Below are positions 2,380 through 60,631 of a stretch of 64,000 nt of DNA, piece after piece. The notes beneath the pieces were generated by a model, which made no database searches, was not told where the DNA came from, and saw nothing but the letters and a program-made list of their open reading frames with translations. A program made the translations under genes and the position numbers. The first letter of the stretch is position 1. Every line of letters begins with the position of its first letter. This stretch comes from Rothia sp. (in: high G+C Gram-positive bacteria) (GTDB lineage: Bacteria; Actinomycetota; Actinomycetes; Actinomycetales; Micrococcaceae): assembly GCA_030529845.1 (NCBI GenBank), contig JAUMWB010000001.1:124001-188000 (forward strand), read 5' to 3'.

Positions 2380-3756
2380 TTAGCCGTGCAGGGGGGCGCC
2401 TGCCAGAGCCATTGCAGCTTCACCCAGTGATTCGTTCTGGGTGGGGTGGGCGTGGATGAACTGGGCGACGTCCTCGGGGAAGGCCTCCCAGACAACCCAC
2501 ATCTGGGCCTCACCGATCTGCTCGCCCATGCGCTTACCAACGGCGTGAACACCGATGATGGGGCCGTTCTTTTCGCGAACAACCTTGACCAGACCGCCGG
2601 TGCCCAGGATGGAGGACTTGCCGTTACCGGCCAGGTTGTACTCGGCAACCTCAACGTTTTCCTTACCGAACTTCTCTTCAGCCTTGGGCTGGGAGTAGCC
2701 GATGGAAGCGATTTCAGGCTCGCAGAAGGTGACCTTGGGGATGTTGATGTCTTCAACGACCTGGGGGTTGAGGCCAGCGATTTCTTCGGCAACGAAGCGA
2801 CCCTGCTGGTAGCCGCGGTGAGCCAGCTGGACACCGGGGACGATGTCACCGATGGCGTAGATGTTACCGACACCGGTGTGCAGACGCTCGTTGGTGATGA
2901 CAAAGCCGCGGTCCATGGTCAGGCCCTGCTCGTCGTAGCCGAAGCCCTCGGTGTTGGGGCCACGGCCCACAGCTACGAGAACGATGTCAGCTTCGAATAC
3001 GGTGCCGTCTTCAAGGGTGACCTTGGCGCCGTTGGCGTCCTGCTCAACGGTCTTGAAGAACTTGCCCAGTGAGGACTTGATGCCGCGCTTCTTGAACTCG
3101 CGCTCGACGACCTTGATGATGGAGGGGTCTTCGTTGGGGACCAGGTGGGGCAGGCCCTCGATGATGGTCACCTCAACACCCATGGAGTTCCACATGGATG
3201 CGAACTCGGAGCCGATGACGCCGCCGCCCAGAACGATTGCGCTCTTGGGCAGGTAGTCCATCTGCAGGGCTTCGGTGGAGGTGAGGACGCGGTCGCGAAT
3301 CTCGATACCGAAGGTCTTGGAGACAGAACCTGAGGCCAGGATGATGTGCTTGCCCTTGTATTCGGTGCCAGCGACGGTGATGGTGTCCTTGCCGGTGAGC
3401 TTGCCTTCACCCTCAATGATGGTGACCTTCTTCATCTTAAGAAGGCCGGTCAGGCCCTTGAACTTGCCGGCGACGATGCCGTCCTTGTAGTCACGAACCT
3501 TAGCCATGTCGATGGACTCGAGGGTGGTGTTTACGCCGTACTTTGAAGCGTGCTGAGCCTCGGATGCGAGTTCAGCAGCGTGCAGGTAAGCCTTGGTGGG
3601 AATGCAACCGGTGTGCAGGCAGGTGCCGCCCAGGTTGCTCTTTTCGATGAGACCTACGGTGAAGCCCAGCTGTACTGCGCGTAGAGCTGCGGAGTAACCG
3701 GCGCTACCGCCACCGAGGATAAGGATATCGAATTCTGTTGTTGCCGAATCGGCCAC
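2380..3756 (-). CDS. lpdA: Dihydrolipoyl dehydrogenase (E3)
   Basis: FAD- and NAD-dependent disulfide oxidoreductase that re-oxidises the lipoyl arms of the E2 protein. An N-terminal GGGSAGY FAD motif is followed by the redox-active pair in GGTCLHTGCIPTK, then an internal GGGVIGSE NAD-binding motif. A C-terminal HAHPTQNE segment supplies the catalytic His and Glu. An upstream ATG at 3774 gives 464 residues, but AAGGGAGC sits 6-7 bp before a GTG at 3756, so I place the start there (458 residues), which also puts the FAD motif at the usual distance from the N-terminus. It lies between pepA and sucB on the same strand and is probably co-transcribed with sucB. Confidence 0.95.
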   Translation of the reverse strand: MADSATTEFDILILGGGSAGYSAALRAVQLGFTVGLIEKSNLGGTCLHTGCIPTKAYLHAAELASEAQHASKYGVNTTLESIDMAKVRDYKDGIVAGKFKGLTGLLKMKKVTIIEGEGKLTGKDTITVAGTEYKGKHIILASGSVSKTFGIEIRDRVLTSTEALQMDYLPKSAIVLGGGVIGSEFASMWNSMGVEVTIIEGLPHLVPNEDPSIIKVVEREFKKRGIKSSLGKFFKTVEQDANGAKVTLEDGTVFEADIVLVAVGRGPNTEGFGYDEQGLTMDRGFVITNERLHTGVGNIYAIGDIVPGVQLAHRGYQQGRFVAEEIAGLNPQVVEDINIPKVTFCEPEIASIGYSQPKAEEKFGKENVEVAEYNLAGNGKSSILGTGGLVKVVREKNGPIIGVHAVGKRMGEQIGEAQMWVVWEAFPEDVAQFIHAHPTQNESLGEAAMALAGAPLHG

Positions 3757-3837
3757 GTTGACGCTCCCTTGCATGGGTCGCGGAGGCGTAAGCCCCCTTA
3801 TGTACTGTCGTTTTCTAGCTTATCCCTTGAACGCGTC

Positions 3838-3864
3838 CACCTGCCACTATTGGCAGGTGTTTTG
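3838..3864. terminator. Hairpin between pepA and lpdA
   Basis: Perfect 9-bp inverted repeat CACCTGCCA/TGGCAGGTG with a CTAT loop. The T-rich tail (TTTTGTT) lies on the plus-strand side, which is the wrong side for ending pepA, so it may instead be an attenuator or a block to antisense transcription. Confidence 0.45.
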
Positions 3865-3953
3865 TTACTCGGGTGGGCATGATTACACCCCGTTACCCGC
3901 TAGAACACAGGCAACAGGGTGTCATCGTAAAAGTTCTCTGGAAAACAACCGGC

Positions 3954-5468
3954 TTAGGCGTAGGCCTCGATGAACTTGATCAGGGTTGCGATAGAGTGGC
4001 CGGTTCCCTCCTTGGGAGTGTAGCCGTAGGGGCCTTCCTCGTTGAATGAGGGGCCCGCGAAATCAAGGTGGGCCCAGGGAATCTTGGCTCCGTCCTTCTC
4101 TCCCACAAACTCTTCAAGGAACTGGCCTGCTACCAGCATGCCGCCGTAGCGGGAGCCAATGTTCTGCAGGTCAGCCACGGGGGACTTGAGGCTCTTGCGC
4201 AGGTGTTCGGGCATGGGCATGGGCCAGTAGTCTTCACCGGCTTCGGTGGCTGCATCGACAACCTGCTGGCGCACGGTATCGTTGCCCATGACCGCTGCGG
4301 TGCGCACGCCCAGAGCCACCAGCTGGGCGCCGGTGAGGGTTGCGATGTCGAGCAGGACGTCGGGTTCACTCTCGGAGGCCAGGGCCAGACCGTCGGCCAT
4401 AACCAGGCGGCCTTCGGCGTCGGTGTTCATGACCTCTACGGTGTGGCCGCTGCGCATGGTGAGCACGTCCTCGGGGCGAATCGAGTTGCCACCGGGCATA
4501 TTTTCGGCCAGGCAGAGGTAGCCGTGGACGGCAACCGGCAGCTTGAGTTCGGAGGCTGCTGCCACAACGTTAAGGACGGTCGCCGCACCCGCCATATCGG
4601 ACTTCATGGTGGTCATGGAGCCAGCAGGCTTCAGAGAGATGCCGCCGGTGTCAAAGGTGATGCCCTTACCCACGATAGCGACGGTCTTTTCGGCATTATC
4701 AGGGGTGTATTTGACCTCTACCAAGCGGGGCTTACGTTCTGACCCCTGGCCAACACCAGCGATACCACCGAAGCCTTCGGTGACCAGCTCATCGTAGTCC
4801 CAGACCTTAGTTTCAATCTTCTCAAGGCCTTCTACTCGAGCTAGAGCACGCTCTGCAAAAGTCTCGGGGTAGAGGTGGGAGGGAGGAGTATTGACCAGGC
4901 GACGGGTGTGGTCAACGGCCTCACCCAGAATCAGAGCGCGGGTGAGAGCCCCTTCTGTTTCAGCGGGGGTGAGATCACTGACAATCAGTACCTCAGCAAC
5001 AGGAGCCTTAACCGAATCGGCGGTCTTAGCGCGCAGCTGAGTATCGGCAAAGGCGCCATAGGCAGCGCCCTCAGCCAGAGCAGCAACATCTTCTACAGAC
5101 TCTGCACCCAGAGCCAGAGCAACAGTTTCAACACCGGCAAGCTGGCGGACGGCTGAGCCTGCTGCGTAGCGCAGGGCAAGACGGTTGGCGGCTGCATTCT
5201 CTTTCTGTGCGCCCAGGCCGATGAGGGCAACTACATCAGCACCAGCTTCGTCAAAGCCGGGAAGTCGGACGAGCTCGTCCTGCCCACCGCTGACTCCCAA
5301 ATCCTCCAAAATAGCCTCAAGGCCCTCGGCTGTTTCGGCGTCGAGGGGGCTGCTGGCCAGCGAGGGGCCTTCCTTGCCGGAATAAACGCCGAGTACCAGC
5401 ACGTCGGCTTCGAGGGCCTCAAGGTCGGGGGGCGTTACAGAGAATGACAGGTCGTGAGAATCGCTCAC
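3954..5468 (-). CDS. pepA: Leucyl aminopeptidase (M17 family)
   Basis: Cytosolic dinuclear-metal aminopeptidase that removes N-terminal residues from peptides, 504 residues as usual for the family. The C-terminal catalytic half contains VGKGITFDTGGISLKP with the metal-binding Lys and Asp, and the family signature NTDAEGRL with its Asp/Glu ligands and catalytic Arg. The N-terminal half is the variable macro-like domain. The start is GTG at 5468, preceded by GAAGGGAG. A plausible promoter lies 60-90 bp upstream. pepA is transcribed divergently from the PAC2 gene. Another role of PepA in some bacteria is DNA binding (XerCD cofactor, carAB repressor); nothing here tests that. Confidence 0.95.
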   Translation of the reverse strand: MSDSHDLSFSVTPPDLEALEADVLVLGVYSGKEGPSLASSPLDAETAEGLEAILEDLGVSGGQDELVRLPGFDEAGADVVALIGLGAQKENAAANRLALRYAAGSAVRQLAGVETVALALGAESVEDVAALAEGAAYGAFADTQLRAKTADSVKAPVAEVLIVSDLTPAETEGALTRALILGEAVDHTRRLVNTPPSHLYPETFAERALARVEGLEKIETKVWDYDELVTEGFGGIAGVGQGSERKPRLVEVKYTPDNAEKTVAIVGKGITFDTGGISLKPAGSMTTMKSDMAGAATVLNVVAAASELKLPVAVHGYLCLAENMPGGNSIRPEDVLTMRSGHTVEVMNTDAEGRLVMADGLALASESEPDVLLDIATLTGAQLVALGVRTAAVMGNDTVRQQVVDAATEAGEDYWPMPMPEHLRKSLKSPVADLQNIGSRYGGMLVAGQFLEEFVGEKDGAKIPWAHLDFAGPSFNEEGPYGYTPKEGTGHSIATLIKFIEAYA

Positions 5469-5529
5469 AGGTTTCTCCCTTCACAACAGAAATAAGAGGG
5501 GCGGGCATAGATAGGTGACCGCGCTATCG

Positions 5530-5559
5530 TGTATAAGCGTAGGCCAAAACCGCGGCCAA
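5530..5559 (-). promoter_or_regulatory. Candidate pepA promoter
   Basis: Minus-strand TTGGCC (5559-5554) and TATACA (5535-5530) are separated by 18 bp and sit about 60 bp upstream of the pepA GTG. It matches a SigA-type promoter moderately well; prediction only. Confidence 0.4.
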
Positions 5560-5619
5560 ATGTAACCTGTACAACGTTGATGAGCCTAAATAACCCCAGA
5601 GCGAACAGCAAAAGATGCC

Positions 5620-5666
5620 GGGGCTAGAGTTTAAGCCCCACTGGGAATAGCTCTGCATATTCCCAG
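5620..5666. repeat. Two inverted repeats upstream of the PAC2 gene
   Basis: First, GGGGCT (5620-5625) and AGCCCC (5634-5639). Second, a perfect 9-bp pair CTGGGAATA (5641-5649) and TATTCCCAG (5658-5666) with an 8-bp centre. The second lies just upstream of a TACACT -10-like element (5689-5694), where a transcription factor operator would be expected. Confidence 0.5.
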
Positions 5667-5760
5667 CGTTATACCCGCGACATTAGGCTACACTGTGCCC
5701 ATACCCTGGAGTACTATAGAGACTCACAGAAGACGGGAACTAAAGAAGGGGGCTAAGAAG

Positions 5761-6726
5761 ATGACGCAGGAAGATCGGCTGTATATCGCTCATGCCGGGG
5801 CGTTTGAAAACAATCGGCTGCGAGGTTTGCCCCTCGTCATTGCTCTCTCCCATCCACAGGACGCTGGTGGAACCGCCGGGCACCTCGGTGAAGTGCTCTT
5901 GCGCGAACTTGAGAATGTGCCGGTCATCGAGTTTGACGCTGACCGCCTGCACGATTACCGTTCCCGTAAGCCCCGCATTACTTTCAAAAAGGACCACTAC
6001 ACTAATCCGGTCCTCCCTGAGCTCAAGCTGTATGCGGTAGAAGACCGCCTGGGCAAGCCTTTCTTACTCCTTACTGGCGCTGAGCCTGATTTGTTATGGC
6101 AGCGGTTTACGGCAGATGTTGTTGATATCGCCCAACGTCTTGAGGTCTCGGTGGCGCTGACGGTGACTGGTTTCCCCATGCCGGTACCACACACCCGTCC
6201 TATTCCTGTCACCGCTCACGGGTCCCGGAAGGATCTGACGGTCGGTATTTCTTCTTTCCAGCCCGAGGCTCTGGTTCCCGGTTCGGTGTCGAGCCTGTTG
6301 GAGGTGCGCCTGACCGAGGCCGGTATTGGAACGGCCGGATTTGCGGTGAACGTGCCCCAGTATCTTTCGGAGTCGGAGCTACCTCAAACAGCCCTGGTAG
6401 CCATGGAACACCTATCGCTGGCAGCCAAGCTGAGCCTGCCCTCGGATCGCCTGCGTGAGCTCTCCGAGAATGTTCAGCTACAGATTGACGAGCAGGCGAG
6501 TGCTAGCCCTGAAATTCAGATGATGATTCAGAGGCTCGAAGAGTCCTACGACGCCAATGCGGCCCAGGGCTTTGGTAGCCTGCCCCTTTCCCAACGCGCA
6601 GCTGGCAAGGTGCCGAGCCGGGATGAAATTGGGGATGAAGTTGAGGCGTTTTTGGCTCAGCTTGATCACCGGACCCGGGAAGCGGACGAGGACGGCCCCC
6701 GTGGGCTTGGGCCATCCCTCTCCTAG
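5761..6726 (+). CDS. PAC2 family protein (proteasome-assembly-chaperone-like)
   Basis: A 321-residue member of the actinobacterial PAC2 family (proteins related to archaeal and eukaryotic proteasome assembly chaperone 2). The N-terminal half shows the Rossmann-like pattern of the fold: LPLVIALSHPQDAGG, then VIEFDADRLHDYRSRKP, then LLTGAEPDLLW. The C-terminal about 80 residues are helical and charged. The frame is open from 5695, but that codon overlaps the probable -10 region; the ATG at 5761 follows a GGGGGC/AAGAAG stretch and begins the conserved part. It is divergent from pepA and upstream of the DUF4192 and sigA genes, an order common in relatives. Its molecular function is not established. 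Confidence 0.85.
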   Translation: MTQEDRLYIAHAGAFENNRLRGLPLVIALSHPQDAGGTAGHLGEVLLRELENVPVIEFDADRLHDYRSRKPRITFKKDHYTNPVLPELKLYAVEDRLGKPFLLLTGAEPDLLWQRFTADVVDIAQRLEVSVALTVTGFPMPVPHTRPIPVTAHGSRKDLTVGISSFQPEALVPGSVSSLLEVRLTEAGIGTAGFAVNVPQYLSESELPQTALVAMEHLSLAAKLSLPSDRLRELSENVQLQIDEQASASPEIQMMIQRLEESYDANAAQGFGSLPLSQRAAGKVPSRDEIGDEVEAFLAQLDHRTREADEDGPRGLGPSLS

Positions 6727-6764
6727 ACTGTGAGAAGTGGTGAGCCGTGCTTGTGGAAATCTGC

Positions 6765-6791
6765 CTGTGACCTGTCATAAGCGCGTCACAG
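6765..6791. repeat. Inverted repeat between PAC2 and DUF4192 genes
   Basis: Perfect 7-bp arms CTGTGAC (6765-6771) and GTCACAG (6785-6791) separated by 13 bp. There is no T-tract directly after it, so an operator is as likely as a terminator for the PAC2 gene that ends at 6726. Confidence 0.4.
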
Positions 6792-6938
6792 CTGCACCGC
6801 AGTTAGGTATTTTTTAGGCGGTTAGTACGATGAAAAGCTCCTTTGATGTGGGCGGGCGTCGGAGTTCCAGCGGGTCGGAAGCATCCACAGGTTTACTTGA
6901 GCTAGCATGAGGCCCTGCCTTCTACCAGCCTGGTGGGT

Positions 6939-8348
6939 ATGACAGAGATTTATCCCACTCCACACCAAGAACCCGTCACTGTTCATCTCAGCTCGGAGCG
7001 CGACGTCCTTGCCCTTGCCTTGCACCTTCTAGGGTATTGGCCTGAAAAGTCCATTATGGTTCTGGCCCTGAGCAGCGGGGGAGTAGGGCCACTCTTGCGG
7101 GTTGACATGCCTGACATGTCGGATGTTGCCCCGGATGACTTCCTCACCTATATTTTCGATGCCTTCCCTACCCACACACCCGAGGGGGAGCTGATCACCA
7201 GTGTATTTTTGCTCCTCTTTGCATCTGGCGCGGCCTCCGGAAAGGTGGATATCTCTGTAGAGAGAACCTTTCTAGAAACAGCTCAGCGCTACGCTGAGCT
7301 AGCGTCAGCTCATGCAACCCAACATGGGGTAATCCTACTGGACGTGCTGGCGGTGGGGCAGGAAGCCTACTGGGCGGTGAACCCCGAAGAGGGGAAGCTA
7401 TCACCTGCGGGCTTTCTAGAAGAGGTCGTGACAAGCCCTCTGTACACTGAACTGGTTGCTCATGGATCCTGTGTTGCAAGAGATTCCCATCAAGCACATG
7501 AGTTTAAGAACCATGCTGTTGTGGATACTTCGGACCCTGAAGAGCAAGAATACTGGCGGGTTTATTCAGAGGCCTCTAGTGCTCTCTACCTGAAGGAGAA
7601 GCAGGAAGAACGGCCCCATGAGGCTCAGCAAATTTCCGGTGAACTGGAGCTGTGGGAGCGCGCTATAGATGCTGTGGCGTCCCTCTTAGATGGCTCACAC
7701 CGTCGCAACGGTACGGGTGAGCAGACACTAGCTGACTCCATACGTGGAGCGGTGATTCCCGATGCTGCTGGTTTTCTCATTGCGTCTCTCGATAGCTTTG
7801 CTACCCTCCAGCTCGTGATTTTTCAGGCCTGCCGTGACCTCAAAGGCTCTTTAGCAGCCTTGAGCGCTTTAGAAAGTGGTGGCGAAGAGCTAGGGCTAAG
7901 CTCCTGCTCGCAAGGTAATCGAGTATTGCCCTTGCCATCAACTCTTCATAGATACGGGCTGGAGCACCTGAGCCAGTCCGGAAGACCTGCACAGCATCAG
8001 GAAGAAAGGGTGGAGGGCTACCTTAAGGAACTAGCCGAAACTCTCTTTGGTCTGGCGGTAGAACCGCCGAACTGGAAGCGGCTCGAAGCCCTGGAATATC
8101 TAGGTGCTGTGCTGGAAGCTTCAGCTACCGGTAAAGCTGAGGTGGCCCTTATTGCCGCACAGGCCTGGCTCAAATGGTTGCGGGGGAACTCTACACAAGC
8201 CGTCCACCTACTGGAGGCCATCGACAGTACCTACTGTGACGGGGTTTCTTTACCTCTGCACTATCTCTTGAACGTCAGTGCTTTCCCTGCCTGGCTCACC
8301 CTGCCCGGGGGCGCCCCGGAGCCCTACGTGACCAAGAACAGCAGATAA
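6939..8348 (+). CDS. DUF4192 domain protein
   Basis: A 469-residue cytoplasmic protein that opens with the features of the actinobacterial DUF4192 family: an LSSERDVLALALHLLGYWPEKS segment followed by beta strands such as IMVLAL and a conserved LLRVDMPD. The middle is less conserved and the C-terminal third is helical with tetratricopeptide-like Ala/Leu spacing (about 370-440). No catalytic residues are recognisable and the family has no proven function. An upstream GTG (6933) is in frame, but ATG at 6939 with GGTGGG just before it is preferred. It lies upstream of sigA on the same strand but is separated from it by about 245 bp, so probably has its own transcript. Confidence 0.85.
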   Translation: MTEIYPTPHQEPVTVHLSSERDVLALALHLLGYWPEKSIMVLALSSGGVGPLLRVDMPDMSDVAPDDFLTYIFDAFPTHTPEGELITSVFLLLFASGAASGKVDISVERTFLETAQRYAELASAHATQHGVILLDVLAVGQEAYWAVNPEEGKLSPAGFLEEVVTSPLYTELVAHGSCVARDSHQAHEFKNHAVVDTSDPEEQEYWRVYSEASSALYLKEKQEERPHEAQQISGELELWERAIDAVASLLDGSHRRNGTGEQTLADSIRGAVIPDAAGFLIASLDSFATLQLVIFQACRDLKGSLAALSALESGGEELGLSSCSQGNRVLPLPSTLHRYGLEHLSQSGRPAQHQEERVEGYLKELAETLFGLAVEPPNWKRLEALEYLGAVLEASATGKAEVALIAAQAWLKWLRGNSTQAVHLLEAIDSTYCDGVSLPLHYLLNVSAFPAWLTLPGGAPEPYVTKNSR

Positions 8349-8594: not shown

Positions 8595-9938
8595 GTGTCA
8601 CCAGCCGCACGCAAGAAAGCAGCCAGCGAAACCGCTGCAACCAAAGCCACCGCTAAAAAAACCTCAACTCGCGCCAAAGCAAAAAAGGCTGACGAGACAG
8701 CAGACGCCGTAGAAGCAGAGGACGACGAAAGCGCCGCGCCTCAGCGAGCTCCCAAGAAGACCGCAGCTAAGAAGGCTGCCCCCAAGAAGAGCCGCAAGGC
8801 TAAGGACGAGGACGAAGAATTCGTCGACGACGATATTGATCTGGACGATGAAGACCTCGACGCTGATGACATCGAAGATATCGATGAAGACGATGATGAG
8901 GACGAGGCGGACTCCGTCACCAAGGAGGAGAAGAAGGAAGCCGAAGCTGTAGCAGCAAAGGGCTCCGGCTTCGTTCTAACAACTAACGACGAGGATGACG
9001 CCCCCGCCGTCCGCGTGGTTACCCCCGGTGCTACCGCAGACCCCGTCAAGGACTACCTCAAGCAGATTGGTAAGGTTGCCCTGCTGAACGCTGAGCAGGA
9101 AGTTGATCTGGCCATGCGTATCGAGGCAGGCCTCTATGCTGAGCACAAACTCAAAGAGAACCCCGATATGGATCCCCAGCTCAAGAAGGAACTGCGCTGG
9201 GTTATTCACGACGGCCGTCGCGCAAAGAACCACCTGCTGGAAGCTAACCTGCGTCTGGTGGTTTCACTGGCTAAGCGTTACACTGGCCGCGGTATGCTCT
9301 TCCTCGACCTGATTCAGGAAGGTAACCTGGGCCTAATCCGTGCTGTTGAGAAGTTCGACTACTCAAAGGGCTTCAAGTTCTCAACCTATGCAACCTGGTG
9401 GATTCGTCAGGCGATCACCCGTGCAATGGCTGACCAGGCCCGTACCATCCGCATCCCCGTGCACATGGTTGAAGTTATCAACAAGCTGGCTCGCGTCCAG
9501 CGTCAGATGCTGCAGGATCTGGGCCGCGAACCTACCCCTGAAGAGCTCGCTAAGGAACTCGATATGACCCCTGAAAAGGTCATTGAGGTTCAGAAGTACG
9601 GCCGTGAGCCGATCTCCCTGCACACCCCTCTGGGCGAGGACGGCGACTCTGAGTTCGGCGATTTGATTGAGGACTCTGAGGCGGTTGTTCCTGCTGATGC
9701 CGTCTCATTCACTCTGCTTCAGGAGCAGCTGCACTCGGTTCTCGATACTCTCTCGGAGCGTGAAGCCGGTGTAGTTGCCATGCGCTTTGGCATGACCGAT
9801 GGCCAGCCTAAGACCCTCGATGAAATCGGCAAGGTCTACGGCGTTACCCGTGAGCGTATCCGCCAGATTGAATCAAAGACTATGTCTAAGCTGCGTCATC
9901 CCAGCCGCTCCCAGGTACTACGCGACTACCTGGACTAA
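8595..9938 (+). CDS. sigA: Primary RNA polymerase sigma factor SigA
   Basis: Housekeeping sigma-70 factor. Residues 1-60 are Lys/Ala-rich and 80-120 are strongly acidic, the usual unconserved extension of actinobacterial SigA. Conserved regions then follow: 1.2 ([11 protein letters not shown]), 2.1-2.4 ([44 protein letters not shown]), 3 ([14 protein letters not shown]) and 4 ([22 protein letters not shown]). The open frame reaches back to a TTG at 8538, but GTG at 8595 has AGAAAGG 6 bp upstream and begins a typical SPAARKKA N-terminus, giving 447 residues. The gene ends in a strong terminator, so it is transcribed alone or with upstream readthrough. Confidence 0.97.
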
Positions 9939-54612: not shown

Positions 54613-54698
54613 CAACAATCAGGTGGACTGCGATTTGCGATATGCAGGTGCGGCGTGCCGGAATCTGTGCGACCTAGCAGCTGAGTAAAATGTTGTGC

Positions 54699-55715
54699 AT
54701 GACACATGCAATGAAGCACCCTGTTACTGTGACCGTGACCGGCGCTGCCGGGCAGATTGGCTACGCCTCCCTTTTTCGCATTGCTGCGGGTGAAATGCTG
54801 GGGCCGGATACCCCCGTCCGTCTGCGTCTGCTAGAAATTCCTGCTGGCATGAAAGCTGCTGAGGGCACCGCCCTGGAGCTGACTGACTGTGCCTTCCCCC
54901 TGCTGGAGTCTGTTGAGATGACGGACGACCCGGCGGTTGGGTTTGAGGGGGCAAATATTGCTCTGCTGATTGGCTCCCGTCCTCGCACCAAGGGGATGGA
55001 GCGGGCTGACCTGCTTGAGGCCAACGGGGGTATTTTCTCGGTGCAGGGCCGGGCTATTAATGATCATGCGGCTGATGATGTGAAGATCGCTGTGGTGGGC
55101 AACCCTGCCAATACCAATGCCTTGATTGCGGCTTCTCATGCTCCTGATGTTCCCCTGGAGCGTTTTACGGCCCTGACCCGGCTGGACCACCACCGGGCTG
55201 TTGGCCAGCTGGCCCAGGCTACCGGGGCGTCAGTTTCTGAGATTGAGGGCCTGGCGATTTGGGGTAACCATTCAGCTAGCCAGTACCCCGATGTTTTCCA
55301 TGCGACGGTGGGCGGACGCCCGGCCTGGGAGGTTTTGACGGAGAAGGGTTTGGGCCAGGAATGGCTTGAACAGACTTTTATTCCGACCGTTGCTAACCGG
55401 GGTGCTGAGATTATTGCGGTGCGCGGGGGCTCTTCGGTTGCCTCCGCAGCCCATGCAGCCCTCTGCCATGTCAGGGATTGGGTTCTGGGAACGGGGGAGC
55501 GAACCACCTCTATGGCGGTTCCTTCTGATGGTTCCTACGGGGTGCCCGAGGGACTGATTTCTTCTTTCCCCGTGCGCTGTGCTGATGGTAGCTATAACAT
55601 TGTTCAGGGGCTGGACCATGGGGGCTTTGCCCACCAGCGCATTGAACGCTCTGTTTCTGAGTTAGCAGAAGAATGCCAGGCCGTGGCAAGCCTAGGTCTA
55701 ACGGGTAAGCGATAG
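54699..55715 (+). CDS. mdh: Malate dehydrogenase
   Basis: NAD-dependent malate/oxaloacetate interconversion in the TCA cycle. NAD fold [24 protein letters not shown], then [12 protein letters not shown], the catalytic region [14 protein letters not shown] with Asp and [11 protein letters not shown] with the active His. In-frame ATGs occur at 54690, 54699 and 54711; family alignments start a few residues before VTVTGAAG, so 54699 or 54711 is likely. The C-terminus (LGLTGKR) is intact. A diverged second copy of the last 60 codons lies 4.5 kb downstream. Confidence 0.93.
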
Positions 55716-55726
55716 GAAAAAATTTC

Positions 55727-55779
55727 TTGACATGAGAGGCTTGGAAATCCTAATGTGATTTATATCAACTCTTGTTGAT
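55727..55779 (+). promoter_or_regulatory. Promoter and inverted repeat before the I36-like gene
   Basis: Consensus TTGACA (55727-55732), 18-bp spacer, TAATGT (55751-55756): the best promoter match in the window. ATCAAC (55764-55769) and GTTGAT (55774-55779) form an inverted repeat at the expected transcription start, an operator-like position. Confidence 0.7.
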
Positions 55780-55819
55780 TTCCCCTCCGGGGGTCTCCCC
55801 TTGCAGAAAGGAGGAGGCA

Positions 55820-56239
55820 ATGAAGCCTTCGAAGATTACTGCTCTACTTGCGAGTTTTGCCATTGGATCATGTCTATTGGTTCCTGTTAGCAATGCAGAA
55901 GCTGCTGTGCGAGATTCTGGTTGTGTAAACGATAAGGTATGCGTTTGGGATCATCGCGCATTTGGGCAAGGTGGGTCTAGTGGTGTATTTCGGTTTAGGA
56001 CACCGTGGATTGGAAATACACTCAATGACAAGATTTCCTCTTATCGTATTGGATATAGCAATACGCGGTACAAGTATGTAATGTTCTATGAGCATTCCTA
56101 TAATGCTAATGCTGCAACTGGATATGGCCCGAGTTTCTATGACCGTCATAATCATGGCATACCTTATCTTCATGAGATTCGACATCTATATGGTGGAACC
56201 TGGGGAGATAAAATTTCATCGTTTGATGAGGCAAGCTAG
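55820..56239 (+). CDS. Secreted beta/gamma-crystallin-like protein (peptidase inhibitor I36 type)
   Basis: 139 residues from ATG 55820, which has a perfect AAGGAGG site. Residues 1-28 are a signal peptide (cleavage after AEA). The mature 111 residues contain two Greek-key-like motifs: CVWDHRAFGQGG ... LNDKISSYRIG and VMFYEHSYNANA ... WGDKISSFD, as in Streptomyces metalloproteinase inhibitor and Streptomyces killer-toxin-like proteins. Two Cys near the mature N-terminus (35 and 41) may pair. The gene is AT-rich relative to the genome. Inhibitor or toxin activity is inferred from fold only; it leads the cassette and has the strong promoter. Confidence 0.75.
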   Translation: MKPSKITALLASFAIGSCLLVPVSNAEAAVRDSGCVNDKVCVWDHRAFGQGGSSGVFRFRTPWIGNTLNDKISSYRIGYSNTRYKYVMFYEHSYNANAATGYGPSFYDRHNHGIPYLHEIRHLYGGTWGDKISSFDEAS

Positions 56240-56244
56240 AATAA

Positions 56245-57150
56245 ATGTTTAAGAAAGTAACCACCTCATTGATGATAATCGGTTGCTTGTGCCTGGTTGC
56301 CTGTGGAAACACGGGCAACCAGGCTTCACAAGAACCCGAGTCTAGCAACCTAGCTTCTACTCTAGATATCCCAGAGGTAGATAGAAGTGCCTATCAAAAT
56401 ATTCACGCCGTATTTGATGAGCAGAAACAAATTGTAGAAACTCCCCTCAACCGTTATGTTCATTCTGAGGACGAATTTACAATGATTGTCACTGCAAACT
56501 TTTTCCCTTTTAAACAATGCGTGAATAATGCTGGGTATGAAACCAGCCGTCACACCTACCAAACTGAGTACAGGCCACATATTCCCTTTGCTGTCTGGTC
56601 ATATCCCTTTGCTGAAAAATATGGATATGAAATCAACCCGGTACAAGGCAAGGTTTACCTTGATCAGGGTGAAACTGATGAAAATCCTGAGCGAGATAAA
56701 GTGCAAACAGATTGCCTAGAAAAGACCCAAGGAAATGAAATACCCGTCATCATGGGTGGCGTTTCTGCAAGACCAGTCGGAGACATGGTTATTTTGAGCG
56801 AGGTAGGTAACCAGGTCCAGACCCTGATATCTCAAGACCAGGATGTACACACTGCAATCCAGGAGTGGATTCAGTGCCTAGAGGGACAGGGCATCTCATT
56901 GGATACCAACTATGAGCAGCCCATACCGGTTATTCCAGAAGGAAAGGAAGCCAACATCAAGCAGGCTATCACCGACGTCCAGTGTAAAAAGGACGTGCGA
57001 CTGATGGAACGGTACTATGACGCCCAAGCCCAGTACGAGCAGGCCCTCATTGAAAAGAACCAGGCAGCCTTTAACACCCTTGCCGAGCGCAAGGAAGAAT
57101 ATATTACTCAGGCCAAGCAAGTTCTCCTGCAGAATGGAATCACCCCGTGA
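56245..57150 (+). CDS. Unrecognised lipoprotein
   Basis: 301 residues with a lipoprotein signal: MFKKVTT, a hydrophobic core and lipobox LVAC with Cys 20. The mature part has Cys at about 93, 155, 213 and 247, likely two disulfides, in FKQCVNNAGYE, TDCLEKTQ, IQCLEGQGI and VQCKKDVRL. The C-terminal 60 residues form a charged helix (ERYYDAQAQYEQALIEKNQ). Starts 5 bp after the I36-like gene and overlaps the next gene by 4 bp, so part of one operon. It may be a substrate-binding, immunity or chaperone partner of the exporter. No known family recognised. Confidence 0.75.
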   Translation: MFKKVTTSLMIIGCLCLVACGNTGNQASQEPESSNLASTLDIPEVDRSAYQNIHAVFDEQKQIVETPLNRYVHSEDEFTMIVTANFFPFKQCVNNAGYETSRHTYQTEYRPHIPFAVWSYPFAEKYGYEINPVQGKVYLDQGETDENPERDKVQTDCLEKTQGNEIPVIMGGVSARPVGDMVILSEVGNQVQTLISQDQDVHTAIQEWIQCLEGQGISLDTNYEQPIPVIPEGKEANIKQAITDVQCKKDVRLMERYYDAQAQYEQALIEKNQAAFNTLAERKEEYITQAKQVLLQNGITP

Positions 57151-58217
57151 ACCCAACCCGCAGGGTGGATAACCCCCGCCTCGTCCTCGGCTTCGTGCTC
57201 GCCTGCCTGCTGGTAGCAGTTACCAGCTTCATCATCGGCAAAAACAGCTCCAGCAGCCAGGACGAGGCGCTCGCCTCCGCCCAAACAACCCTAGTCGTCA
57301 ACGCCCCCGCAGAACGCCGCACCCTGGGCACCACCGCCACCTACCAGGGCAGTGTCCAAGTACCCCCGTCCCAAGACATCACCTACAAGGGCACCGGAGT
57401 CGTTACCACCGTTGCCGTCAAACCCGGCGACACCGTACGCCCCGGAACCCTCGTCGCTACCGTAGACAGCAACCCCGTCATCGCAGTCACCGGTTCCAAC
57501 AAACCCATCTACCGTGACGTCCATCCAGGGGACGCAGGCTACGATATCGAAGCAATCCAAGAAATCCTCAACCAACTCGGCTACCCACTCACCATCACCG
57601 GAAAATTCGACGAACCTACAGAAAAAGCCGCAGAAAGACTCTTCGCCAACATCGGCTACACCAGCCCCTGCGGCGAAAAAATCTGCTTCCACACCGGCAC
57701 CTTCCTCCCTATCCCCGCAGACCTACCCCCGGTCAGTACCGTCACCACACCCGGCACCAACACCGCAGAAAATGCCGTACTCTTCCAAACCAACAGCGGC
57801 ACCCGCAACATCACCGCCCGCATAGGCGTCGCCCAAAAAACTGACTTCGACGAACAGCCCGAAGTAACCGTCACCGGCCCCAACGGCGAAATCACCCGCA
57901 CCACCGACTACAGCTTCAGTGACTTCAAAGAAGGCACCGACAGCCTCCTACCCGGCTACGACCTCACCGTCAACCTTCCCCCAGACCTGCCAACAATCCC
58001 CGACAATAAAACCATCGTCACCCTCAGCCTCAACGCTTCCACCAAAGAATACCTAGCCGTACCCGCCGTCGCTATCCGCCAAGAAGGAACCACCACCTAC
58101 GTCCTCACCGAAGACGGCACCCGCATCAACGTCACCGTCCTCACCCAGGTACAAGGCTGGGCCGGTATTGAAGACGTAGAGGGAATCAGCGAAGGTGCCC
58201 GCGTCCGCGTTTCCTAG
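57147..58217 (+). CDS. MacA/HlyD-like adaptor with peptidoglycan-binding domain
   Basis: 356 residues. One N-terminal membrane helix (about 11-30), a lipoyl/barrel-sandwich region (VTTVAVKPGDTVRPGTLVATVDS), and an inserted peptidoglycan-binding fold (about 125-170: GDAGYDIEAIQEILNQLGYPLTITGKFDEPT). The beta-barrel and membrane-proximal half ends in SEGARVRVS. This adaptor type accompanies MacB-like ABC transporters in actinobacteria and probably anchors the complex to the wall. GTG start overlaps the lipoprotein stop (GTGA). Confidence 0.82.
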   Translation: MNPTRRVDNPRLVLGFVLACLLVAVTSFIIGKNSSSSQDEALASAQTTLVVNAPAERRTLGTTATYQGSVQVPPSQDITYKGTGVVTTVAVKPGDTVRPGTLVATVDSNPVIAVTGSNKPIYRDVHPGDAGYDIEAIQEILNQLGYPLTITGKFDEPTEKAAERLFANIGYTSPCGEKICFHTGTFLPIPADLPPVSTVTTPGTNTAENAVLFQTNSGTRNITARIGVAQKTDFDEQPEVTVTGPNGEITRTTDYSFSDFKEGTDSLLPGYDLTVNLPPDLPTIPDNKTIVTLSLNASTKEYLAVPAVAIRQEGTTTYVLTEDGTRINVTVLTQVQGWAGIEDVEGISEGARVRVS

Positions 58218-58227
58218 GAGAAACCCC

Positions 58228-60156
58228 GTGCAACCACTCATCACACTCCGAGGAATCACCAAGGAATACAAGAACCAAGATATTCCCGCGTTGTCCTCCA
58301 TAGACCTCGACATACACGCCGGAGAGTTCATCGCCATCACCGGGCTCTCCGGCTCCGGCAAATCCACCCTCCTCAACATTCTCGGCCTACTCACCAGCGC
58401 AGACAGCGGCACCTACACCATCGACGGCGAAAACCTTAAGGACGTCAGCGCCCGCGAACGCGACACCCTCCGCTCCCACTACTTCGGTTTCATCTTCCAA
58501 GCCTCCCACGTGCTCGGCTACGAAACCGTCACCAAAAATTCCATGCTCGGGCTCCGCACCCAAAACCGGCCCCTCACCGACCGCGCTACGGGAGCCGCCA
58601 CCTGGATCAAAAAAACAGGGCTCACCCACCGCGCCAACGCCAAAGGCAACGAACTCTCCGGCGGCGAACGCCAACGCCTCGCCATCGCCCGCGCCATGGC
58701 AACCCAACCCAGAGTCCTCCTCGCCGACGAACCCACCGGCAATCTAGACTCCAACAACGCCCAGCGCGTCTTCAACCACCTCAAAGACATCAACGCCACC
58801 GGCACCACCGTCATACTCATCACCCACGACCCCACCCTCGCCAGTCAGGTACCCCGCCAAATCACCCTCCACGACGGAAAAATCATCAAAGACACCGGGG
58901 CCACCCAACCCAGACCCGGCACCACCGCACCCAGCACACCAACCCCCAACACCACAGCAGAAGGAAACACTCGCCCCTGGGTAGACGACGCCCTCGACGC
59001 CCTCAACTACATCTCCATCACCCCCATCAAGGCCCTCACCCTCATCTTCGCCTTCATGCTCGGAGTCGGTGGACTCATAGCCGCCCAAGGACTCTCCGCC
59101 ACCGCCTCCCAACAAGTCTCCCAAACCCTTGCCACTGCAGCCCTCGACGACGTCAAAGCCACTATCACACCGTCCGACGCCACTACCGCCTACGACGGCA
59201 AAACCATCAACACCCTCACCCAAGACATCGCCAGCTACCCCGGCGCGAAAACCGTCACAGCTTCCCGTTACCTCCCAACCCGTGACCTCGCGCCCAGTGC
59301 CCTCCCCAACCTCCCCAGCGGATTCAGCGGCACCGCCTACGCCGTAGACTCACACCACTTCACCTACCTCGACGCAACCGTCAGCCACGCCCACGCTCTC
59401 TGGCAACTCGACGGAAACCACCCCGTAGCCTTCGTCGGAACCAAAGCCGCCGAAGAACTCGGCATAGGCAACCCCAACAGCGGCAACGGAATCATCTGGC
59501 TTGCCGGCAAACCCGTCACCGTCCTCGGACTGGTAAAAGATAGCCCCAGGGACGTAACCGCTAGCTCCAACATCTACACCAACTTCAGCTACGGCCTGTC
59601 TCCTGAACAGGCAAGCAAAGTGGTAGAAAGCGAGATTTTCATACGCACAGAACCGGGCTACCCTGCTCCCCTCGCCGAAGCCCTGCCTCTCATCATCAAC
59701 CCCGTAGCCCCCGAAACCATCAGTGTCAGCACCGTAGCCGACCTGCGCAATATCCAACGTGGCGTATCCTCCAATCTCGCCACCCTCGTCACCGGAATCT
59801 CCTGGCTCCTTATCTTCCTTGCCAGCCTCACCAGCGCCACCACCCTCTACACCTCAGTGCAATCCAGACGCACCGAAATAGCTCTGCGCCGCGCCATCGG
59901 AGCAAGCAAAGCCTCAATCCTCAGAATCTTCCTGCTCGAAGGAACCTTCGTCGGTCTAGCGGGCGGAATCGCAGGAGCCAGCCTCGGCACCCTCGGCATA
60001 GTTATTACAAGCCTCAATCTGGGCTGGACCCCTGTCATGTCTACCGGCTGGATCTGGATCGGCCTCGCCATCGGCGCCCTCACCGGTATGCTCTCCGCCG
60101 CCTACCCCGCCTACTTAGCAGCCCAGGCCCAACCTGCTGAAGCAATGAGGGCCTAG
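58228..60156 (+). CDS. MacB-like ABC transporter, fused ATPase and permease
   Basis: 642 residues from GTG 58228 (AGGAG 8 bp upstream). The ATPase domain (1-225) has GLSGSGKSTLLN, the ABC signature ELSGGERQRLAIARAMA, Walker B VLLADEPTGNLDS and the switch His (THD). A Pro/Thr linker (about 228-250) leads to a MacB permease: helix 1 near 275, a large extracytoplasmic domain (about 300-510) and three C-terminal helices with the FtsX signature around SRRTEIALRRAIGASK. MacB proteins drive export of peptides or confer self-resistance without the substrate crossing the membrane through the pump. The Ala/Leu-rich tail ends in QPAEAMRA as in the family. Confidence 0.88.
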   Translation: MQPLITLRGITKEYKNQDIPALSSIDLDIHAGEFIAITGLSGSGKSTLLNILGLLTSADSGTYTIDGENLKDVSARERDTLRSHYFGFIFQASHVLGYETVTKNSMLGLRTQNRPLTDRATGAATWIKKTGLTHRANAKGNELSGGERQRLAIARAMATQPRVLLADEPTGNLDSNNAQRVFNHLKDINATGTTVILITHDPTLASQVPRQITLHDGKIIKDTGATQPRPGTTAPSTPTPNTTAEGNTRPWVDDALDALNYISITPIKALTLIFAFMLGVGGLIAAQGLSATASQQVSQTLATAALDDVKATITPSDATTAYDGKTINTLTQDIASYPGAKTVTASRYLPTRDLAPSALPNLPSGFSGTAYAVDSHHFTYLDATVSHAHALWQLDGNHPVAFVGTKAAEELGIGNPNSGNGIIWLAGKPVTVLGLVKDSPRDVTASSNIYTNFSYGLSPEQASKVVESEIFIRTEPGYPAPLAEALPLIINPVAPETISVSTVADLRNIQRGVSSNLATLVTGISWLLIFLASLTSATTLYTSVQSRRTEIALRRAIGASKASILRIFLLEGTFVGLAGGIAGASLGTLGIVITSLNLGWTPVMSTGWIWIGLAIGALTGMLSAAYPAYLAAQAQPAEAMRA

Positions 60157-60167
60157 ATAGGTATCTG

Positions 60168-60347
60168 CCCCTCATTGCCCTGGGTAGTATTCGCTTGCCA
60201 GATGGGGATAGTCCACCCATTGGATATGAGATTGTTCACGGTTTAGAGCACTCAGATTTTGCCCGCCAGCACATTGCCGCCTCTGTGGCAGAGCTGGTTG
60301 AAGAGAAGGACGCTGTCGCCCAGCTCGGTCTGTTCGGCCCCCGCTAA
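60168..60347 (+). pseudogene. Diverged 3' fragment of mdh
   Basis: Sixty in-frame codons ending in TAA, without start or ribosome site. The translation matches the last part of malate dehydrogenase: PDGDSPPIGYEIVHGLEH, SDFARQHIAASVAELVEE, LGLFGPR, against [38 protein letters not shown] of the intact gene at 54699. About half the residues agree, so it is from a different mdh lineage rather than a recent local duplication. Confidence 0.75.
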
Positions 60348-60606: not shown

Positions 60607-60631
60607 ATCACTTTAACTCTCAAGGATGTCA

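Follow-up and report, generated by a model that had tools for sequence, protein, structure and literature searches.

A candidate mobile cassette for a secreted crystallin-type protein and its putative immunity at the mdh gene of Rothia

The stretch of DNA analysed here, which we call the window, comprises 64,000 nucleotides of contig JAUMWB010000001.1 from Rothia sp. Between its malate dehydrogenase gene, mdh, and cydA, which begins at 60626, there are four genes on the same strand (55820-60156), and a second mdh 3' end follows them. An earlier note, made from the sequence alone, had described an intact mdh on the left, four genes in one direction and an mdh-related 3' end on the right, and this layout is confirmed at 54690-55715, 55820-60156 and 60222-60347. 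Our results suggest that the four genes may form a mobile chromosomal cassette for a secreted protein and its immunity; taken as a whole, evolution and function together, we regard this proposal as having about an even chance of being correct. The features of the site are as follows.

54690-55715, + strand: mdh, intact malate dehydrogenase gene, putative left homology arm (NCBIfam PRK05442, 1.5e-149)
Roughly from 55556, + strand: atypical 3' tail of the window's mdh, placed by analogy with breakpoints at nucleotides 851-884 in other carriers
55727-55756, + strand: promoter-like hexamers TTGACA-18-TAATGT (sequence inspection)
55764-55779, + strand: perfect palindrome ATCAAC-N4-GTTGAT 3' of the cassette promoter, candidate operator, one copy in the 64 kb window
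55820-56239, + strand: cargo (P0001), 139 amino acids, Sec-like signal, beta/gamma-crystallin (I36) type (Pfam Inhibitor_I36, 1e-5)
56245-57150, + strand: lipoprotein (P0002), 301 amino acids, proposed immunity protein (lipobox Cys20 by eye; conserved C92, C157, C211, C247)
57147-58217, + strand: macA, MacA/HlyD-like membrane adaptor with a peptidoglycan-binding domain (P0003), 356 amino acids (PG_binding_1 7.2e-5, RND_mfp 1.2e-7)
58228-60156, + strand: macB, MacB-like ATP-binding cassette (ABC) ATPase-permease fusion (P0004), 642 amino acids (ABC_tran 8.5e-31, FtsX 5e-14)
60157-60221 (65 nucleotides), + strand: linker from macB to the mdh fragment, no mdh homology (junction stretch comparison)
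60222-60347, + strand: displaced native mdh 3' end, 41 codons and a stop, putative right homology arm (identity to cassette-free mdh ends)

The crystallin-like cargo, the peptidoglycan-binding MacA-like adaptor and the MacB-like transporter recognised in the earlier note are all supported by matches in Pfam, in NCBIfam and to the MacB structure 5nik. The calcium-type signature of the beta/gamma-crystallins consists of two motifs of the form [N/D][N/D]-X-X-[S/T]-S. The cargo has NDKISS, which fits, and GDKISS, which departs at the first position. Signal peptides, in the cargo and in the proteins of other loci, were predicted by a simple rule based on hydrophobicity. Pfam Inhibitor_I36 is matched by 16 of 17 aligned cargos, and a profile of these 17 (A3) finds Clostrillin (4.6e-12), spherulin 3a (9.3e-11) and protein S (1.1e-10) in the PDB. 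The cargo is thus predicted to belong to the beta/gamma-crystallin superfamily, in the Pfam I36 branch. The lipoprotein has no Pfam match, a sub-threshold NCBIfam match only (0.047) and no relative in the PDB below 0.19. The RND_mfp match of the adaptor lies under the cut-off of that NCBIfam model. In P0004 the ATPase, the MacB-like core and the FtsX permease are all in one chain, and its residues 2-640 align to residues 2-645 of 5nik (phmmer, 1.2e-59). It is not MacB proper, since it scores 229.6 against the PRK10535 equivalog, whose cut-off is 966; it matches many ABC exporter models in NCBIfam, none above its curated cut-off among the best 25 of 212 matches. The GTG start of macB at 58228 follows AGGAGA, and the reading frame also opens at 58195. 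A tRNA-Pro(ggg) called by ARAGORN on the minus strand inside macA (57835-57918) is most likely spurious.

In the genus, with one genome taken per species, mdh was found in 26 of 35 genomes, and the cassette stands at the mdh site in four of these 26. The carriers are the window's genome (G000), G017 and G020, whose contigs are named Rothia nasimurium 136RC1 and 64QC2CO, and G004, a metagenome-assembled genome of Candidatus Rothia avicola with a diverged copy. The stretches fetched from the remaining 22 mdh-bearing genomes showed no cassette, so the cassette order of the mdh-cydA interval is not genus-wide. Among these 22, cydA lies closely 3' of mdh in 19, is cut short in G027 and was not found in the fetched stretches of G030 and G032. 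In G027 (L070, near 8626-8709) the cydA match ends after about 28 residues and unrelated sequence comes next, so that cydA appears broken or replaced. The nine genus genomes with no match to the window's mdh are each at least 95% complete.

The earlier note took the mdh 3' end after macB to be 60 codons of a foreign, donor mdh. Its relationship to mdh is confirmed by profile search (PRK05442, 1.2e-6, residues 20-54 only, NCBIfam); 41 of the codons are mdh, the rest being 18 residues outside mdh plus the stop. The proposed polarity is reversed. The fragment has 50% amino acid identity to the window's own mdh, and its last 123 nucleotides are 88-92% identical to the mdh ends of the cassette-free sister species G005, G019, G016, G018 and G029, compared with 60% to its own intact mdh end, 56-62% to the intact ends of G017 and G020 and 68% to that of G004. 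Likewise, the G020 fragment is 88-92% identical to the five cassette-free ends and 62% to the tail of G020 itself. Among themselves, G000, G017 and G020 have intact ends with 74-76% identity, and the identity of these to the five cassette-free ends is 53-61%. In a phylogenetic analysis of the tails these three intact ends form one clade (0.948). The fragments of G000 and G020 lie outside it and group with the cassette-free species, and the G017 fragment joins G008 and G007 weakly (0.530). In the tree of the remaining mdh, G020 is placed in the G005 group. The identity comparison of fragment and tail covered 15 of 40 rows, and the trees left out L093, in which mdh is split. The possibility that the fragment is foreign DNA was rejected because the mdh ends of nine cassette-free genomes (G005, G019, G016, G018, G029, G021, G031, G008 and G007) resemble the window's fragment more closely than they resemble its intact mdh tail; for G024 (64 versus 62%) and G034 (57 versus 53%) the difference in favour of the fragment is slight. 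In these sequence comparisons, then, the fragment after macB is the native resident mdh 3' end, and it is the intact mdh of the carriers that bears an atypical tail.

Breakpoints in mdh are consistent with this polarity. In a Max-chi2 analysis against G005, identity falls at nucleotide 866 in G020 (88% before, 57% after), at nucleotide 851 in G004 (89 to 64%) and at nucleotide 884 in G017 (82 to 54%), each with 0 of 1000 shuffles, compared with 530 of 1000 for cassette-free G019 and 53 of 1000 (nucleotide 71) for cassette-free G021. G004 retains a short remnant of the fragment only, which starts at the same GGATATGAGATTGTTCA, and the right junction GGATATGAGATT is common to all four carriers. 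The junction stretch with the linker is 95% identical in G017 and G020, and further matches to it in the 35 genus genomes are short, with E values of 9.8e-4 or weaker only. A dispersed repeat at the right junction was considered and rejected, the placeable short matches in the genus being read as chance coding matches.

Synonymous divergence (dS, Nei-Gojobori) among the three close carriers, G000, G017 and G020, suggests that the cassette has moved more recently than its neighbourhood has diverged. It is 0.070-0.107 in macA, 0.072-0.122 in macB and 0.044 in the I36 cargo (one pair, as G017 has no cargo), compared with flanking values of 0.24-0.36 in parE, 0.345-0.473 in cydA, 0.20-0.70 in cydB and 0.62-1.41 in mdh. 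Because macA and macB lie below parE in all three carriers, most of the cassette appears to have moved between species. Between 57120 and about 60230, G000 and G017 mostly agree at 92-100% of positions, dipping to 86-89% at 58140 and at 59460-59520. Past about 60230 they agree at 68-69% within the fragment and at 49-63% across the intergenic DNA that follows. From this drop the G017 cassette seems to abut the mdh end of another lineage. The G004 proteins have 54-79% amino acid identity to those of the window (cargo 54%, lipoprotein 55%, adaptor 75% and MacB 78% alike) and the G004 fragment is decayed. In the lipoprotein, nonsynonymous divergence from G004 is 0.53-0.54 in the first two thirds and 0.16 in the last third; in close pairs the end is not slower. 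The presence of the cassette in four of 26 genomes, the low dS of macA and macB and the breakpoints in mdh support its horizontal acquisition by recombination in mdh, as the earlier note proposed. A phage or virus as the vehicle was rejected, since the lipoprotein has no match in 50,697 phage records and no adaptor relative was confirmed in viral contigs.

We suggest, from the mdh sequence that flanks the cassette on both sides, that it can enter the mdh of a relative by homologous recombination alone. By comparison of the genomes, the cassette, together with an atypical mdh 3' tail, appears to have entered the mdh of a Rothia and pushed the resident 3' end to its right. With mdh on both sides, DNA from a carrier could then undergo recombination with a relative's one mdh copy, which would insert the cassette and leave mdh whole, and the recipient's own mdh 3' end would become the new right fragment, as the point at which identity stops in G017 suggests. 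Several observations sit uneasily with this scheme. The G017 fragment is only 70-72% identical to the five native ends, compared with 61% to its own tail. The best split of the window's own mdh against G005 is at nucleotide 524 (83 to 68%, 0 of 1000 shuffles), not at the tail. Tail identity also falls in cassette-free G031 (77 to 63%, nucleotide 920, 40 of 1000) and G008 (76 to 66%, 144 of 1000), and because the tail is the faster part in cassette-free pairs too, some of the loss of identity is to be expected; in G020, G004 and G017 the loss exceeds that of the cassette-free pairs. Lipoprotein dS is 0.098 between G000 and G020 and 0.43-0.50 to G017, as high as in the flanks, and the cassette therefore appears to be itself a mosaic. 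Lastly, the window's genome has one ComEC-family gene, and since the family is present in 10 of 14 control genomes it adds weak support only.

A replacement tail together with a displaced native tail is the classic footprint of integration at the 3' end of a gene. The four genes may then be leftover cargo of a degenerate integrative element, whose site-specific integrase would formerly have used mdh as its target and supplied the replacement 3' end, and both this footprint and the right junction common to the four carriers are what such an element would leave. No free open reading frame for an integrase was found between mdh and cydA in the list of reading frames (no integrase profile was run), no repeat of at least 14 nucleotides pairs mdh with the fragment, and the mdh breakpoints vary (nucleotides 524-884), which fits homologous recombination. 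We consider this explanation unlikely, while it survives better than the other alternatives discussed below.

The earlier note also proposed a promoter close to consensus ahead of the cargo gene. The TTGACA at 55727 is a perfect -35 hexamer and bears this out in part; TAATGT, 18 nucleotides on, agrees with TATAAT at three of six positions, and the pair at 55727-55756 was absent from the list of a consensus promoter scan. The palindrome core TCAAC-N4-GTTGA is present in three of 94 loci (the window, G020 and G004) when 1000 nucleotides upstream of each lipoprotein gene are scanned, and G017 has a degenerate copy by eye. It is possible that the palindrome is an operator, its core being kept in G020 and G004. 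An operator common to such modules in general was rejected because the core is found in mdh-site cassettes only.

The four genes are also found together elsewhere. Of 295 genomes of the family, 57 have relatives of the adaptor, many of which are weak or incomplete matches, and 5 kb on either side was read at 26 of about 100 listed places. In these 26 loci lipoprotein and adaptor are always complete, MacB is complete in 25, and an intact crystallin cargo lies upstream in 14, or 16 if two doubtful cases are counted. A Leifsonia plasmid bears all four genes, the first annotated as a peptidase inhibitor of family I36. The mixed base composition that the earlier note read as a sign of assembly from several sources is real at the site, with guanine plus cytosine (GC) contents of 42% in the cargo, 46% in the lipoprotein, 59% in macA and 61% in macB. 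The lipoprotein gene is lower in GC than both pump genes in all 22 listed modules, by about 1 to 16 points (for cargo, lipoprotein, adaptor and MacB, 64, 66, 76 and 76% in L111, and only 55, 55, 56 and 58% in L108), and since this recurs the AT-rich half does not point to a patchwork. A patchwork origin was accordingly rejected, the four-gene order and the GC difference both recurring in distant actinobacterial modules.

Further modules were seen within the genus and on a plasmid. The window's own genome has a second, diverged crystallin-lipoprotein-adaptor-MacB module (L119, G000:C3:17814-28791, genes at 3739-8014), and a module of G017 (L121, on C7) lies beside a downstream gene similar to that of L119. 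In two Rothia genomes without the window's mdh (L122 in G013, L123 in G028) a related lipoprotein-adaptor-MacB set is directly 3' of cydB; no crystallin was detected in either, and parE, cydA and cydB, named by eye, make this the same neighbourhood as that of the window cassette. On a large plasmid of Arthrobacter sp. StoSoilB13 (L097) there are a lipoprotein, an adaptor in two frames and a cut MacB frame, and no crystallin was detected.

An alignment of 26 lipoproteins (A4) has an invariant lipobox Cys, C92, C157, W208, C211 and C247, and Pfam matches one of the 26 at E<=0.01, which is not that of the window. Of the sampled genomes, 44 of 297 in the order and 55 of 296 in the class contain relatives found with a profile of these sequences (E<=1e-10). 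We examined 60 loci chosen by the lipoprotein alone, out of about 165 listed rows; they are mostly the strongest, and some end at contig edges. The crystallin profile, aligned before these loci were seen and used at E<=0.01, gave 43 match rows, of which 39 are in the slot just upstream of the lipoprotein, a slot that makes up 6.7% of the strand-nucleotides. By locus, a crystallin was found in 32 of 60 in the first round and in 45 after one iteration, the iterated profile being less independent in that it includes sequences from the 60 loci. Adaptor and MacB lie 3' of the lipoprotein in 21 of the 60, which makes the pump optional; 31 loci have a cargo and no pump detected. Five of the 15 loci without a crystallin show another small Sec-type protein near the lipoprotein at a similar spacing: that of L181 matches PG_binding_1 (2.5e-11), that of L170 matches SH3_3 under its cut-off (0.02), those of L176 and L204 have no family and resemble L170 by eye, and that of L162 has no convincing family. 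No convincing cargo was seen in the other ten. Six of the 60 loci have two to five lipoprotein genes. Tandem arrays of five in L159 (G386:C5) and L177 (G406:C1) resemble arrays of spare immunity genes, and no crystallin was detected with the L159 array. Distances between proteins were compared in 21 of 94 loci, those with four genes intact, L052 being left out because it nearly duplicates the window. After removal of MacB, cargo and lipoprotein distances correlate (partial 0.21, 7 of 999), and cargo and adaptor distances do not (0.03, 361 of 999).

In our analysis the cargo is also the gene that decays. Among 30 pump loci, the four mdh-site carriers and the 26 chosen by adaptor, a script scored the cargo as intact in 17, damaged in seven and undetected in six, while lipoprotein and adaptor are complete in all 30 and MacB is split in one. 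With L109 (0.68 profile coverage) and L110 (0.98) recounted as intact, the loci without an intact cargo fall from 13 to 11, six damaged (L051, L100, L103, L105, L120 and L124) and five undetected (L101, L102, L122, L123 and L125), compared with none without an intact lipoprotein (Fisher 0.0003, related loci being treated as independent). The cargo is the shortest of the genes, yet it is the one most often damaged or undetected. At the mdh site of G017 about 28 codons of it are left. A toxin-immunity system can be defined by a dedicated partner and by loss of the toxin more often than of the partner, and the pairing and decay found here correspond, at the sequence level, to both.

Gene order, pairing, decay pattern and spread thus support, as far as comparative data allow, the antimicrobial and immunity layout with a crystallin as cargo that the earlier note had put forward. 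We suggest that across actinobacteria the pair of secreted cargo and lipoprotein may serve as a weapon of the bacteriocin kind together with its immunity. The cargo would be a Sec-exported, two-motif beta/gamma-crystallin that acts against Gram-positive competitors, with the cell wall as its probable target. Anchored to the surface of the producer, the lipoprotein would bind and neutralise it. The peptidoglycan-binding MacA-like adaptor and the MacB-like ATPase may expel the cargo from the membrane and wall zone, aiding release or immunity, and the pump would be an accessory, as it is missing from many cargo-lipoprotein pairs. Some of the data pull the other way. Members of the I36 family are named for peptidase inhibition. 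In raw distances cargo and MacB (0.52) match cargo and lipoprotein (0.48), the lipoprotein is tighter with the pump genes (0.63, 0.65) than with the cargo, and its correlation with the adaptor beyond MacB is 0.38. In five of the 11 decay cases no crystallin could be detected and the cargo may be a different one, frameshifts in the damaged cargos may be sequencing errors, and the 30 loci include close relatives, 26 of them picked by macA, so that loss of macA is not visible. Any cargo with a fast turnover would also give cargo loss with a kept partner.

The I36 name suggests another function. The crystallin may be a secreted I36-type peptidase inhibitor guarding the envelope, with the lipoprotein as its receptor or anchor and MacAB aiding release, a system that would be protective and not antagonistic. 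The Pfam matches of nearly all aligned cargos and the I36 annotation of the Leifsonia cargo agree with this. Loss of the cargo with lipoprotein and pump intact would be odd for an inhibitor, and neither the non-crystallin secreted proteins in some slots, one of them peptidoglycan-binding, nor the lipoprotein arrays, including the one in L159 with no crystallin detected, would be expected; we think it rather improbable. It is less probable still that the locus is an envelope-stress or drug-efflux module, in which a MacAB-like pump and a lipoprotein act against foreign antimicrobials and the crystallin is a sensor or decoy. Such a module would account for the resemblance of MacB to macrolide exporters along almost the whole chain, for the retention of pump and lipoprotein where the cargo is lost and for the lipoprotein-pump distances, which correlate best. 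In the loci chosen by lipoprotein, however, a cargo is more frequent (32 of 60, or 45 when iterated) than a pump (21), and in 31 of them the cargo is present and no pump was detected. Vertical inheritance of an ancient mdh duplication together with a housekeeping ABC operon would explain why four genomes share the cassette and why G004 has a diverged copy (54-79%) and a decayed fragment, and is very unlikely given that macA and macB dS is two- to fivefold under that of parE in three carriers and that 19 of the 22 remaining mdh-bearing genomes have cydA close behind mdh.

Anti-phage defence was also considered and rejected, as PADLOC matches P0004 only (best mad3, 4.1e-32, with its best stretch at residues 137-207, followed by mad8, AriA and a Toprim ATPase), and we take these matches to reflect ATPase similarity.

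Read as a secreted bacteriocin-like protein with immunity, the system has a fair chance of forming a class of its own. In its full form this proposal is more tentative, falling somewhat short of even: an undescribed class of actinobacterial antagonism with an exchangeable secreted head, immunity lipoproteins with four cysteines and an optional peptidoglycan-binding MacAB pump, of which the Rothia copy would be homing-like through mdh on both sides. The head would be mostly a beta/gamma-crystallin and sometimes a peptidoglycan-binding or SH3-like protein. Among the listed titles and abstract openings of the open-access literature, with most subscription journals and all bioRxiv preprints outside the scope and mdh as an integration site not searched, the pairing of a crystallin cargo with this lipoprotein was not described. 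If the pair is a toxin with its immunity, commensal and soil actinobacteria would hold a new family of protein antimicrobials with immunity genes ready-made. The vaguely named I36 'peptidase inhibitors' are now linked to a dedicated lipoprotein family for which no curated name was found. The mdh arrangement suggests a route by which a small cassette without a recombinase may pass between species and leave its target gene whole.

The pump resembles exporters of the MacAB and YknWXYZ type in that a single chain combines the ABC ATPase with the FtsX permease and the adaptor is of the lipoyl type. It differs from them in that its adaptor carries a peptidoglycan-binding domain, in standing beside genes for a secreted crystallin and for a dedicated lipoprotein, and in its Gram-positive host. 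SMPI (peptidase inhibitor family I36) and the Streptomyces killer-toxin-like protein are secreted actinobacterial proteins of the crystallin type. The cargo matches this family and differs in being paired with a lipoprotein family, inhibition or killing being putative. NisI and NisFEG, a surface lipoprotein and an ABC exporter, are two layers of self-protection, and the cassette likewise has a lipoprotein and an ABC exporter. No sequence relation to them was shown (Pfam matches one of 26 lipoproteins), and there is no lantibiotic synthesis gene among the four genes of the cassette.

In the available excerpt of PMC4055356, nisI and nisFEG are named, lactococcin 972 is said to bind lipid II, and two further genes of its locus may encode an ABC transporter for immunity. 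For streptococcin B (scbABC), strains without a functional bacteriocin still hold the locus with its immunity genes, according to the excerpted text of PMC11796350. As far as these excerpts go, the cassette is like such loci in that a small Sec-exported beta-rich protein, a beta-sandwich in the case of lactococcin 972, comes first and predicted immunity and transporter genes follow, and in that immunity genes are kept where a functional cargo is lost (PMC11796350). Our cassette differs in its cargo, which is of the beta/gamma-crystallin type, neither P0001 nor the 17 aligned cargos having a Pfam or NCBIfam match to the lactococcin 972 family. In lactococcin 972 loci a multi-membrane protein takes the position of the cassette's lipoprotein. 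The cassette has instead a lipoprotein, a peptidoglycan-binding MacA-like adaptor and a fused MacB-like exporter, and P0004 scores 192.6 bits against TIGR03608, which does not reach the cut-off of 254.85. By analogy, the cassette resembles the lactococcin 972 loci in how it may work, and is not a member of them.

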